Of a stretch of DNA of 64,000 nt, positions 10,713 through 13,802 are shown piece by piece. Within the stretch, counting starts at the first letter, position 1; every line of letters starts with the position of its first letter. The notes beneath the pieces were generated by a model. It was not told where the DNA came from. It ran no database searches and was given only the letters and a program-made list of their open reading frames with translations. Made by a program: the position numbers and the translations under genes. Source of the DNA: an uncultured Eubacteriales bacterium (lineage in GTDB: Bacteria > Bacillota > Clostridia > Oscillospirales > Oscillospiraceae); contig ONPN01000002.1 in the NCBI GenBank assembly GCA_900319695.1, positions 1 to 64,000 on the forward strand. Reading direction: 5' to 3'.

Positions 10713-10741
10713 AAAAAGCCGGAATGATCATCCGGCTTTTT
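10713..10741 (+). terminator. Terminator after the DUF1858 gene
   Basis: Perfect 11-bp stem AAAAAGCCGGA (10713-10723) / TCCGGCTTTTT (10731-10741) with a 7-nt loop. Confidence 0.9.
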
Positions 10742-10763
10742 GCATATCTGCGGAGTATTTACA

Positions 10764-11438
10764 ATGAACAAACGCTTGATAGCTATTGCGGCGCTGATCC
10801 GGGACGGACAGGGCCTTGTTGACGTCGGAACGGATCACGGTTATCTGCCTGCTTATCTGGCCTTAAGCGGCTATCACGGCGCTCTTTTCGCCTCGGACAT
10901 CAAAGAAGGCCCGCTTTCCGCGGCCAAAAGGTCGGCGGCTGAGGCCGGCTTATCGGGACGTATTCGCTTCCTCCTCTGTGACGGTCTGCGTCTCTGTCCG
11001 CCGGAAGAGATCGACACCATCGTGATCGCCGGGATGGGCGGGGATGTGATCGTCAAAATCCTCGACGAAGCCGAGTGGTGCATGGATGCGCGCTATCGTC
11101 TCATTTTACAGCCGATGACCAAGGCAGAGGTTCTGCGCTACTGGTTGGTAAACAACGGGTTTTCGATCGCTTCTGAAACGCTGACCGAGGACGGAGGGAT
11201 CGTCTACCAGATCATCGAGACCTGCTTTGGCGGCGAAACAGAGCTTAACGACGCGGAGCTTTTTGTGGGTAAGCGCAGCCTGTGCCGGGATCAGGCGCTC
11301 TATAACGGCCAGGTTGAAAAGCTTTACATGCGCTTTGAACGCGCCGCCGAGGGGATGCGCGGCAGAGAAGAGCTGCCGAGACTAAAGCTCTATCGGGAAA
11401 TCTGCGCCCAGCTTATGGAAATGAGGATGCAGCCATGA
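10764..11438 (+). CDS. trmK: tRNA (adenine(22)-N1)-methyltransferase
   Basis: TrmK (YqfN) uses SAM to methylate A22 in tRNA. The 224-residue protein has the class I methyltransferase motif VDVGTDHGYLPAYLA (about 19-33), SDIKEGPL, VIAGMGGDVIVKIL and LQPMTKAEVLRYWL. ATG 10764 gives the expected start MNKRLIAIAAL; it lies 22 bp after the preceding terminator. The stop overlaps the ATG of the next gene (ATGA), the same trmK-yqfO pairing as in Bacillus. Confidence 0.9.
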   Translation: MNKRLIAIAALIRDGQGLVDVGTDHGYLPAYLALSGYHGALFASDIKEGPLSAAKRSAAEAGLSGRIRFLLCDGLRLCPPEEIDTIVIAGMGGDVIVKILDEAEWCMDARYRLILQPMTKAEVLRYWLVNNGFSIASETLTEDGGIVYQIIETCFGGETELNDAELFVGKRSLCRDQALYNGQVEKLYMRFERAAEGMRGREELPRLKLYREICAQLMEMRMQP

Positions 11439-12202
11439 CAAGTATACAGAATATCTTTGATGAACTCTGCCGCATTGCGCCGCTGGAGCTGCAAATGGAC
11501 TTCGACAACGCGGGCTTTCAGTTCGGCCGCGCCGACAGGGAGGTTCACCGTGCGCTGCTCAGCCTGGACGTGACGGACGAAGTCGCGGAGGAGGCGCGGG
11601 TGCTCGGCGCGGAGCTGATCGTCTCCCACCATCCGCTGATTTTTTCGCCGCTCAACTCTGTCTGCGACACGGAGGCTGTCCAGAGGCGCGTGTTGTTTTT
11701 AATAGAAAACGGGATCGGCCTCATCTCCATGCACACGAATCTCGATATTGCGGAAGACGGCGTGAACGACGTGCTGATCCGCCTGCTCGGCGCGGAGCCT
11801 GCGGGAGCTCTGGATGAGGACGGCTGCGGCCGGATCGGAACCCTGCCGGAGTCTGTGCCGTTGGACGCCTTTCTCAAGCGCTGCAAAGAGATGTTAGGAG
11901 CCGAGGGCCTGCGTTACTGCGCTGGCGGGAAAGCGGTCTCCCGCATCGCCGTCATGGGCGGCGCAGGCGCGGGGAGCCTGGAAGTCGCTGCGGCCAAAGG
12001 CTGTGATACCTATGTGACCTCCGATATAAAATACCACCAATTCCAGCGCGCGGCGGAGCTGGGACTGACGCTCATCGACGCCGACCATTTCTATACGGAA
12101 AATCCGGTGATTCCGGAGCTTGCGCGGCGTCTGTCCGAGCGCTTCCCAGATGTAGCCTTCCACGTCAGCGAGAGACATCGGGCCTGTATTCGCTTTGCCT
12201 GA
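11435..12202 (+). CDS. Nif3-family dinuclear metal-centre protein (YqfO-like)
   Basis: A 255-residue member of the Nif3/DUF34 family, hexameric proteins with a two-metal site. Metal ligands are in IVSHHPLIFS (His-His near 67-68), SMHTNLDIAEDGVN (His and Asp), and near the C-terminus in DADHFYTENPV. It lacks the PII-like insertion found in Bacillus YqfO. GTP cyclohydrolase activity has been proposed for some relatives, but the role remains unclear. It overlaps trmK by 4 bp, and its transcript ends in the hairpin that contains the spoIVA promoter. Confidence 0.9.
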   Translation: MTSIQNIFDELCRIAPLELQMDFDNAGFQFGRADREVHRALLSLDVTDEVAEEARVLGAELIVSHHPLIFSPLNSVCDTEAVQRRVLFLIENGIGLISMHTNLDIAEDGVNDVLIRLLGAEPAGALDEDGCGRIGTLPESVPLDAFLKRCKEMLGAEGLRYCAGGKAVSRIAVMGGAGAGSLEVAAAKGCDTYVTSDIKYHQFQRAAELGLTLIDADHFYTENPVIPELARRLSERFPDVAFHVSERHRACIRFA

Positions 12203-12209
12203 CAGGCCC

Positions 12210-12238
12210 GCATAATGCGCCTCCAGCTCTCATACACT
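12210..12238 (+). promoter_or_regulatory. SigE-type promoter of spoIVA
   Basis: GCATAAT (12210-12216), a 14-bp spacer and CATACACT (12231-12238) fit the sporulation SigE pattern (-35 like KMATATT, -10 CATACA-T). In Bacillus spoIVA belongs to the SigE regulon. The predicted transcript start is about 12245, in the loop of the overlapping terminator hairpin. Confidence 0.7.
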
Positions 12239-12273
12239 CGAACAAGTGAGATCATGAGAGCGGAGGCTTTTTT
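12219..12273 (+). terminator. Terminator hairpin overlapping the spoIVA promoter and SD
   Basis: The left arm 12219-12233 (GCCTCCAGCTCTCAT) pairs with 12254-12267 (ATGAGAGCGGAGGC), 14 pairs with one bulged A, followed by six T residues. The spoIVA ATG follows immediately at 12274. The spoIVA SD (GGAGG, 12262-12266) is part of the right arm. Transcripts from the trmK operon would therefore terminate or hide the SD, whereas transcripts from the SigE promoter lack the left arm and leave it open. Confidence 0.85.
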
Positions 12274-13752
12274 ATGTGTGAAAACAATCTGTACAGCGAA
12301 TTGGCCGCCAGAACGGACGGCGCAGTCATGCTGGGCGTCGTCGGCCCAGTGAGAACCGGAAAGTCGAGCTTCATTAAGCGCTTCATGGAGACGCTTGTCA
12401 TCCCGCATATTGAGAACAGCTTTCTGCGGGAGCGCGCGAAGGATGAACTGCCGCAGAGCGCATCCGGCAAAACCATCATGACAGCGGAGCCCAAATTCGT
12501 CCCGGAAAACGCGGTTACGATCAAACTCGGCGAGAACGCGGAAATCTCGGTTCGCCTGGTGGACTGTGTGGGTTACATGGTGGAGGGGGCGGCCGGGCAG
12601 CTGGAGGACGGACAGGAGCGCATGGTCACGACGCCGTGGTTTGACCATGAGGTCACGATCACGGAAGCGGCGGAGAAAGGGACTTATAAGGTAATCACCG
12701 AGCATTCCAGCGTGGGGATCGTGGTGACGACGGACGGCAGCTTCGGTGAGATCCCGCGGGAAAGCTACGAGCCGGCAGAAGAGCGCGCCATTGCGGAACT
12801 CAAAGCCATCGGGAAGCCCTTTGTCGTGCTGCTCAACAGCAGCGATCCCGGAAGGGAGAGCTGTGCGGCGCTGGCCCGTCAGCTTTCGCAGAAATACGAT
12901 GTATGCTGCATGCCGGTCAATTGCCTGACCATGAGTGAGGAGGACATCGGCCGTATCCTGCGCTCGGTGCTGGAGGAGTTTCCGTTAAAGGCTGTGGGCG
13001 TGTTTCTGCCGGACTGGCTTGACGCCCTGCCAAAGGAAAATACGCTGCGCAGCGCTCTCTTTGACGCTATAGCCGAGGCCTCCGGCGATCTGGAGAAAAT
13101 ACGCGACTGCGGCGCGCTGCTCTCCCGTCTGGGCGCGTGCGAGCAGGTGGAGTCGGCAAGCCTGTTGAAAAACGACCTCGGCAGCGGCGCGAGCACGGTC
13201 GAGCTGCGTCTGCCGAGAAGCCTGTACTATCAGACCATCAGCGAGCAGACCGGTCTTGAAATCGGGAACGACCGCGATCTGATCGCTATTCTCTCGGAGA
13301 TGAGCGCGGTTCGGGCGGATTACGATAATCTTCGTCACGCGCTGGAAGAGGTACGCACCCGCGGCTACGGCGTCGTCATGCCGGAAGCCTCCCAGATGAC
13401 GCTCGAGGAGCCACAGATCGTGCGGCAGGGAGGAAAATACAGCGTCAAGCTCAAGGCCAGCGCCCCGGCCATCCATATGATTATGACCGATATTGAGACT
13501 GAGGTCACCCCGGCCATCGGTGGGGAGGGAGCTTCCGAGGATATTATCAATTTCCTGCTCCAGGGCTTTGACGGAGACATCAACCGGATCTGGCAGTCGA
13601 ACATCTTCGGCAAGTCCTTGAACGATATTGCGGAGGAGGGACTTGCGGCGAAGATCGACTCTCTGCCCGAAAACGTGAAGGATAAGCTGCGCGAGACATT
13701 GGAGCGCCTTATCAACGAAGGGAGCGGCGGACTGATATGCATCTTGCTCTGA
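12274..13752 (+). CDS. spoIVA: Stage IV sporulation protein A (spore-coat base-layer ATPase)
   Basis: SpoIVA polymerises around the forespore with ATP hydrolysis to form the foundation of the coat. The 492-residue protein has the P-loop GPVRTGKSSF (residues 24-33), the region VDCVGYMVEGAAGQ, and the long coiled and C-terminal parts typical of the family, ending DKLRETLERLINEGSGGLICILL-like. The length matches Bacillus SpoIVA (492). Its partners SpoVM and SipL are encoded at 23.8 and 22.2 kb. Transcription is probably by SigE from a promoter within the upstream terminator. Confidence 0.97.
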   Translation: MCENNLYSELAARTDGAVMLGVVGPVRTGKSSFIKRFMETLVIPHIENSFLRERAKDELPQSASGKTIMTAEPKFVPENAVTIKLGENAEISVRLVDCVGYMVEGAAGQLEDGQERMVTTPWFDHEVTITEAAEKGTYKVITEHSSVGIVVTTDGSFGEIPRESYEPAEERAIAELKAIGKPFVVLLNSSDPGRESCAALARQLSQKYDVCCMPVNCLTMSEEDIGRILRSVLEEFPLKAVGVFLPDWLDALPKENTLRSALFDAIAEASGDLEKIRDCGALLSRLGACEQVESASLLKNDLGSGASTVELRLPRSLYYQTISEQTGLEIGNDRDLIAILSEMSAVRADYDNLRHALEEVRTRGYGVVMPEASQMTLEEPQIVRQGGKYSVKLKASAPAIHMIMTDIETEVTPAIGGEGASEDIINFLLQGFDGDINRIWQSNIFGKSLNDIAEEGLAAKIDSLPENVKDKLRETLERLINEGSGGLICILL

Positions 13753-13773: not shown

Positions 13774-13802
13774 TTGACTTGCGCGGCGGCGGAAGCTATA
13801 AT
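13774..13802 (+). promoter_or_regulatory. Sigma-A-like promoter of the cwlD-like gene
   Basis: TTGACT (13774-13779), a 17-bp spacer and TATAAT (13797-13802), then SD AACGGAGGCG before ATG 13840. A housekeeping-type promoter is unexpected for a spore amidase, which is under SigE/SigG in Bacillus. Confidence 0.8.

Follow-up and report, generated by a model that had tools for sequence, protein, structure and literature searches.

The window, as we call the whole stretch of 64,000 nucleotides analysed here, belongs to a draft genome (G000) of 2.82 Mb in 96 contigs that is 79.3% complete. The genes at the locus follow each other in the order trmK, nif3, spoIVA, a cwlD-like amidase gene and radA. 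The first two overlap, and the nif3 stop codon (TGA, 12200-12202) is followed after 7 bases by the -35 element of a SigE-type promoter, so that the 71 bases between this stop codon and the spoIVA ATG hold the promoter, a long hairpin, the Shine-Dalgarno (SD) sequence of spoIVA and a T run (Table 1). Genes encoding SigE (371.6 bits) and SpoIIID (120.9 bits) are present in the same genome.

Table 1 Features of the trmK-nif3-spoIVA region (window coordinates).
Feature	Position	Strand	Basis and remarks
trmK (tRNA methyltransferase)	10740..11438	+	Pfam TrmK 141 bits, ORF list; first gene, presumed upstream transcript
nif3 (DUF34/NIF3)	11435..12202	+	Pfam DUF34_NIF3 244 bits; TIGR00486 188 bits
Basal stem, left half	12209..12215	+	MFE; pairs with 12272-12278, covering the start codon
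-35 element GCATAAT, SigE-type promoter	12210..12216	+	Sequence; ATA/CTA 19 bases ahead of the -10 in 64/64 genus loci
Promoter spacer, 14 bp	12217-12230	+	Sequence
Hairpin left arm (anti-SD)	12219..12233	+	MFE; promoter spacer plus first 3 bases of the -10
-10 element CATACACT	12231..12238	+	Sequence; CATA[ACG]ACT in 64/64 genus loci
Apical loop, 6 bases	12241..12246	+	Fold; predicted SigE start site (~12245) inside
Hairpin right arm, holds the SD	12254..12267	+	MFE
spoIVA Shine-Dalgarno GGAGG	12262..12266	+	Sequence; 7 bases ahead of the ATG
T6 run, presumed intrinsic terminator	12268..12273	+	Sequence; abuts the ATG
spoIVA (spore coat and cortex morphogenetic ATPase), 492 aa	12274..13752	+	TIGR02836 623 bits (cut-off 459.9); three SpoIVA Pfam domains

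Further downstream, a sigma-70-like promoter match (TTGACT-17-TATAAT, 11 of 12 positions) at 13774-13802 overlaps the TTG at which the cwlD-like gene is listed to begin; translation of this gene probably begins at an ATG further on.

Fold of the window hairpin

A sequence-only reading of this DNA had described a 14-pair hairpin with the spoIVA SD in its right arm, a T run touching the spoIVA ATG and a SigE-type promoter, GCATAAT-14-CATACACT, and all three descriptions held. In the MFE structure the main stem has 6 + 8 pairs (12219-12224 and 12226-12233 with 12254-12267, A12225 being bulged). The promoter had also been placed in the left arm, which is accurate for the spacer and the first three bases of the -10, while the -35 takes part in an additional stem at the base. 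This basal stem of 7 pairs (12209-12215 with 12272-12278), which covers the AUG, and an inner stem of 4 pairs (12237-12240 with 12247-12250), which closes the six-base loop, go beyond the earlier 14-pair description.

The MFE of the leader is -34.3, compared with -19.4 +/- 3.1 for shuffled sequences (z -4.8), and none of 200 shuffles was as low. An RNA beginning at 12245, the start site predicted from the promoter at 7 bases past the -10, lacks the left arm and has an ordinary fold (z +0.69). When the upstream part of the window leader was shuffled, 3% of 60 shuffles buried the SD equally deep. The single window sequence is suggestive, and it is conservation that carries the case.

A stable GC-rich hairpin with a T run directly 3′ of it is the hallmark of an intrinsic terminator and is found here, the T run being weak in two related leaders (L017 and L018). 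The site was absent from the list produced by an automated terminator scan of the window, the rules of which admit loops of 3-8 bases only, and a search of Rfam with positions 11900-12600 gave no match at E-values up to 1.

Conservation and covariation within the genus

We searched for the SpoIVA protein in 101 genomes of the same genus, drawn from a larger group, and read the 5′ region of all 64 spoIVA loci obtained, that of the window included. The earlier reading had proposed relatives as a check on the arrangement, and there it is kept: the hairpin and the -10 motif CATAnACT (CATA[ACG]ACT) occur in all 64 loci, and the spoIVA ATG lies directly at the end of the T run in 62, the exceptions being L014 and L025, in which an insertion separates the two. 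This conservation in 64 of 64 same-genus loci is the strongest argument against chance. The nif3 gene is always directly upstream of spoIVA, and its stop codon lies 4 to 27 bases ahead of the ATA/CTA of the -35 (190 in L141). At least five T within the nine bases after GGAGG were counted by script in 58 of the 64 loci, or in 62 with four misparsed rows read by eye; L017 and L018 have four T in nine bases, and their SD is still fully buried.

In the MFE folds, pairing with the spacer or the -10 takes in the full five-base SD place in 56 of the 64 leaders and four of its bases in the other eight; in L014 and L025 this place belongs to the stem and is not the SD adjoining spoIVA. The median leader has 21.5 pairs between both sides, and all three bases of the start codon pair with the -35 region in 47 of 64. 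One leader, L054, is the same as that of L028. The proposal that the SD is buried in read-through RNA and open in RNA from the internal promoter agrees with a predicted contrast in 60 of 64 leaders. In the long RNA, the predicted unpaired fraction of the SD has a median of 0.0005 and is at or under 0.25 in every leader; in the RNA from the predicted SigE site, the median is 0.79 and the value is at or over 0.5 in those 60. In L117 (0.4995), L063, L067 and L137, the SD remains more than half paired in the predicted SigE RNA as well. Median values for the start codon are 0.02 in the long RNA and 0.26 in the short RNA, in which it is thus only partly free.

Shuffling of the upstream part was extended to 157 of 184 distinct leaders; the 27 others, among them L014 and L025, were dropped for want of a promoter match or with a start past the SD. 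At most 5% of shuffles buried the SD as deep for 52 of 63 genus leaders versus 11 of 94 leaders outside the genus.

For covariation we aligned 63 distinct leaders (alignment A1), leaving out L009 and L024 as duplicates of L008 and L049, the latter a named record outside the 64 genus loci. RNAalifold returned a consensus of 9 pairs only, owing to the near absence of variation on the SD side and to a bulge that shifts position between leaders. The structure was therefore named from single-sequence folds, which leans the pair count its way, and for this reason controls with slid partners are given. In the named structure 89.4% of pair cells are standard and 9 of 25 pairs show double changes; with slid partners, 35-48% of cells remain paired and the covariation score, 0.130 for the named structure, does not exceed 0.074. 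Among 500 column shuffles, which ignore relatedness, none reached the covariation score, 11 the number of double-change pairs and 37 that of further pair types. The inner closing pair, for example, is G-C in L004, G-U in L001 and A-U in L008. L123-like and L015-like leaders differ in the position of the bulge at about equal pair number, which column counts score as breaks. For the basal helix, 82.3% of cells are paired over the 63 sequences versus 26-55% when slid, and its three double-change pairs were reached by 275 of 500 shuffles; taken alone, it is less certain than the main hairpin.

We know of no sequence demand on the spacer of SigE promoters. Across the genus leaders, the spacer columns that pair with the SD side (17-24) have a mean column identity of 0.81, compared with 0.32 for columns 13-16, of which column 13 alone can pair, in the basal stem, and 0.48 for columns 25-27, of which two pair, next to the bulge. 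Double changes, together with the conservation of those spacer columns that pair, suggest that the hairpin is under selection.

Occurrence beyond the genus

A covariance model of the hairpin (R1) gave six matches in the source genome at E-values up to 10. The spoIVA hairpin scored 73.4 bits and the other five at most 21.8; one of these is the opposite strand of the spoIVA palindrome, and two of the remaining four (L146 and L148), when folded, gave hairpins with a T run. The pattern GGAGG-T4-ATG occurs at 30 places in this genome, 15 per strand, versus 2 and 0 in the backwards control. Several of these places hold the SD in a hairpin, and a promoter-like match ([AC]TA-N15-17-CATA) within 100 bases upstream was found at one of the 30, that of spoIVA.

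In 200 genomes of the family, 39 had an R1 match at an E-value of 0.001 or better. Of 35 R1 loci (L145-L179) taken from the source genome and this family search, spoIVA adjoins eight (L145, L147 and L151-L156), and the strong matches beside spoIVA in these 200 genomes fall into g1, g102 and g57. The two leaders of genus g57 (L155 and L156) have a different stem, CTCCTCCGGC/GCCGGAGGAG, in the same place, with the -10 CATAGACA; the predicted unpaired fraction of their SD in the short RNA is low, at 0.37 and 0.24.

A family search detected spoIVA in 206 of 250 genomes, from which 92 leaders were read. A class sample of 118 genomes, confined to Clostridia, contained 87 with spoIVA, and the best 29 leaders besides that of the window were read. 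For 112 leaders from outside the genus, grouped into 48 clusters, we computed the energy of the duplex between spacer and SD; the set derives from 220 items, 35 of which were dropped as lacking a promoter or SD, and the remaining exclusions were genus members or duplicates. Over the 48 clusters, the duplex of a spacer with its own SD had on average -8.9 kcal/mol versus -7.8 when partners were swapped, and 2 of 5000 permutations were as low. At -8 kcal/mol or better there were 26 own pairs compared with 22.2 expected from swaps, so the own-pairing signal comes from a few strong cases. Nine of the 48 clusters reached -12 kcal/mol or better (L155, L154, L326, L304, L204, L246, L189, L104 and L310), while one cluster of 49 leaders, whose representative has the spacer TTATCCCC, lies at -6.2 kcal/mol. 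A strong lock is thus a minority trait outside the genus, where 6 of 94 leaders have an SD unpaired at 0.1 or less in the long and at 0.5 or more in the short RNA.

We mapped the pairing state on a quick maximum-likelihood tree of 85 SpoIVA proteins, 73 of which have a promoter match (32 strong, including 16 genus members, and 41 weak). With the strong state set at -12 kcal/mol, a threshold picked after the energies had been seen, at least 10 changes are required, 8 of them forced by well supported branches. Taking the tree and the leaders together, the genus and the neighbouring g102 (SH-aLRT 94) have the device in common as a single trait. Elsewhere, strong pairing between spacer and SD, at this post hoc threshold, was gained or lost several times.

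In Flavonifractor-like relatives (L203, L207, L240, L096 and the 49-member cluster), the spacer of the spoIVA promoter reads GCTTATCCCCATA or GCTTATCCACATA, which we take to be close to a DnaA box (TTATNCACA).

Proposed switch, rival readings and known systems

On the anatomy, conservation, predicted folds and compensatory changes described above, we consider it likely that the junction between nif3 and spoIVA is a start-site-dependent switch built from one hairpin, with SigE use, start site, termination and translational silencing as its predicted parts. Polymerase arriving from trmK-nif3 would copy both arms, and the hairpin and T run would end this RNA at the spoIVA start codon. Any read-through RNA would keep the SD paired, and the AUG as well, via the basal stem with the -35 sequence; spoIVA would thereby not be made in growing cells. 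In the mother cell, SigE polymerase would start in the apical loop and its RNA would have the right arm alone, so that there would be neither terminator nor SD lock and spoIVA would be transcribed and translated.

The promoter has the features expected for SigE. According to the excerpted text of PMC3789822, the SigE -35 motif in C. difficile is ATA, and SigE and SigK promoters have similar -10s and differ in the -35 (ATA versus AC). In all 64 genus loci, ATA or CTA in the -35 is combined with a CATA-type -10 at SigE spacing. The promoter (-35 from 12210, -10 from 12231) falls within the DNA encoding the helix's 5′ strand (left arm 12219-12233), and the motif is placed alike in all 64.

Terminator and SD lock can be told apart in a few lineages. 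In L014, the spoIVA start has moved downstream, the stem reads GAAGG instead of a GGAGG-kind SD, the left arm carries the matching C-to-T change (CCTTC) and T6 is kept; read from its letters, L014 is a putative terminator without SD lock. As in L025, an insertion has put the spoIVA start downstream of the hairpin, and the ATG that follows the T run in L014 starts a 20-codon frame, whose stop codon overlaps the new spoIVA start. Conversely, three leaders from other genera have the lock without a T run, with predicted unpaired SD values in the long and short RNA of 0.06 and 0.67 (L189), 0.00 and 0.76 (L195) and 0.01 and 0.54 (L246); as modelled, they are SD locks without terminator. As further clean cases of this kind we rejected L222, L266 and L204, in which the contrast is weak or absent (0.00/0.22, 0.26/0.29 and 0.47/0.76, long/short). 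A strong duplex between spacer and SD without such a contrast is also seen in L104 (0.26/0.08) and L155 (0.00/0.37). We read these cases as selection that would act on both terminator and lock, with the lock alone represented by few lineages.

The same lineages bear on a simpler explanation, that the hairpin only ends the trmK-nif3 RNA, with the SD lying in the right arm since the intergenic region is short and with its hiding being functionless. This would account for the presence of a T run in 62 of the 64 loci of the genus (four rows by eye), for the retention of the hairpin in L014 and L025 with the spoIVA-adjoining SD elsewhere, in L014 even with a compensating change, and for the lack of a strong lock in most leader clusters outside the genus. 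It does not account for the spacer-SD locks of L189, L195 and L246 without T run, for the own-specific complementarity of spacer and SD outside the genus or for the full burial of the SD in L017 and L018 despite a weak T run, and we regard it as unlikely.

Much less probable still is that the palindrome serves mainly as a DNA operator over the promoter, for instance for SpoIIID, with the RNA hairpin as a by-product. SpoIIID is encoded in the source genome, and the sequence around the predicted start site, CTCG-N6-CGAG, hardly varies; in the excerpted sources, spoIVA is turned on by SigE and off by SpoIIID in B. subtilis (PMC517825) and is SigE-dependent and SpoIIID-repressed in C. difficile (PMC3789822). 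Against this, the letters of the loop differ between members of the genus (GTTTCAGC, GTAACACC, GTAGCGAC), and the complementarity to SD and start codon and the T run are left unexplained. Terminator hairpins commonly protect the 3′ ends of RNA, but a role in RNA stability instead of control of spoIVA translation leaves unexplained why SD and start codon are the pairing partners and why the promoter lies in the arm, and is very improbable.

Letters resembling TGTACAAA stand just past the -10 at the predicted spoIVA start site in several Clostridia (L246, L253, L310, L325 and L327), and the window loop (12237-12248, CGAACAAGTG) is similar to them; both presumably resemble a SpoIIID site.

The start-site-dependent switch has relatives in phage T4. 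In the long early RNA of gene e, a helix hides the SD and/or AUG. The DNA that encodes the 5′ strand of this helix, just upstream, also contains late promoters, and the late RNA, which lacks that strand, is translated (excerpts of PMC3014915 and PMC2988022). The structure cuts lysozyme synthesis 100-fold (PMC3014915, excerpt), and I-TevI and other endonucleases have the same arrangement (PMC2988022, excerpt). The spoIVA hairpin shares with gene e and I-TevI the promoter in the 5′-strand DNA, and in its predicted folds the SD is likewise hidden by pairing in the long RNA and open in an RNA that begins at the internal promoter. Unlike spoIVA, these are phage genes with T4 late promoters, and the excerpts describe no terminator T run.

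A second relative is the read-through hairpin of B. subtilis sigG (spoIIIG), like spoIVA a sporulation gene behind another transcription unit. It differs in having a SigF/SigG promoter and in concerning another gene and another cell, and the parts of the sources available to us describe no fusion with an intrinsic terminator; at spoIVA, unlike at sigG, the -35 offers a pairing partner for the start codon as well. With intrinsic terminators and attenuators, spoIVA has in common a GC-rich hairpin followed by a T run and one strand that chooses between termination and expression. Unlike in attenuators, no ligand, leader peptide or alternative antiterminator would be needed, and the transcription start would set the choice.

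As far as the excerpts go, start-site-dependent SD hiding therefore has precedents in T4 gene e and I-TevI and, within sporulation, in B. subtilis sigG. A search of titles and abstract openings of the open-access literature, which leaves most subscription papers outside, gave no description of such a device for spoIVA or in combination with an intrinsic terminator; within the reach of that literature, the fusion at spoIVA looks new. If the switch is real, a gut lineage represented in this analysis mainly by metagenome assemblies silences a key sporulation gene by structure, without a regulator, and promoter spacers, usually taken as free sequence, can be selected as RNA. The part is compact, as the hairpin that would stop and lock the upstream RNA cannot form in an RNA begun inside it. 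Because the logic has been described for sigG and T4 late genes, it is testable how often late or developmental promoters thread through SD-locking hairpins.

A wider version of the proposal is tentative, and we would sooner doubt than assert it. One palindrome would combine four overlapping functions (terminator, lock of SD and start codon, SigE promoter and perhaps SpoIIID operator) and read where an RNA began and not a ligand. The same solution would have arisen several times at spoIVA in Clostridia, and mother-cell genes behind housekeeping genes might generally be insulated in this way, the spacer evolving as an anti-SD and the -35 as an anti-start codon.

Two other open frames in the source genome begin at comparable hairpins. 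In L281 (G000:C55:12958), the SD of a 147-aa frame lies in a hairpin followed by T5 and ATG; the frame has a weak match to sigma-70 region 4 (19.1 bits, below the cut-off of 25.7). In L285 (G000:C61:93673-93687, minus strand), the SD lies in a long hairpin ahead of TTTT and the ATG of a 72-aa frame, which gave no match in a Pfam search and which we take to read like the start of an IS256-type transposase. The ends of insertion sequences silence outside transcription by SD-hiding hairpins.
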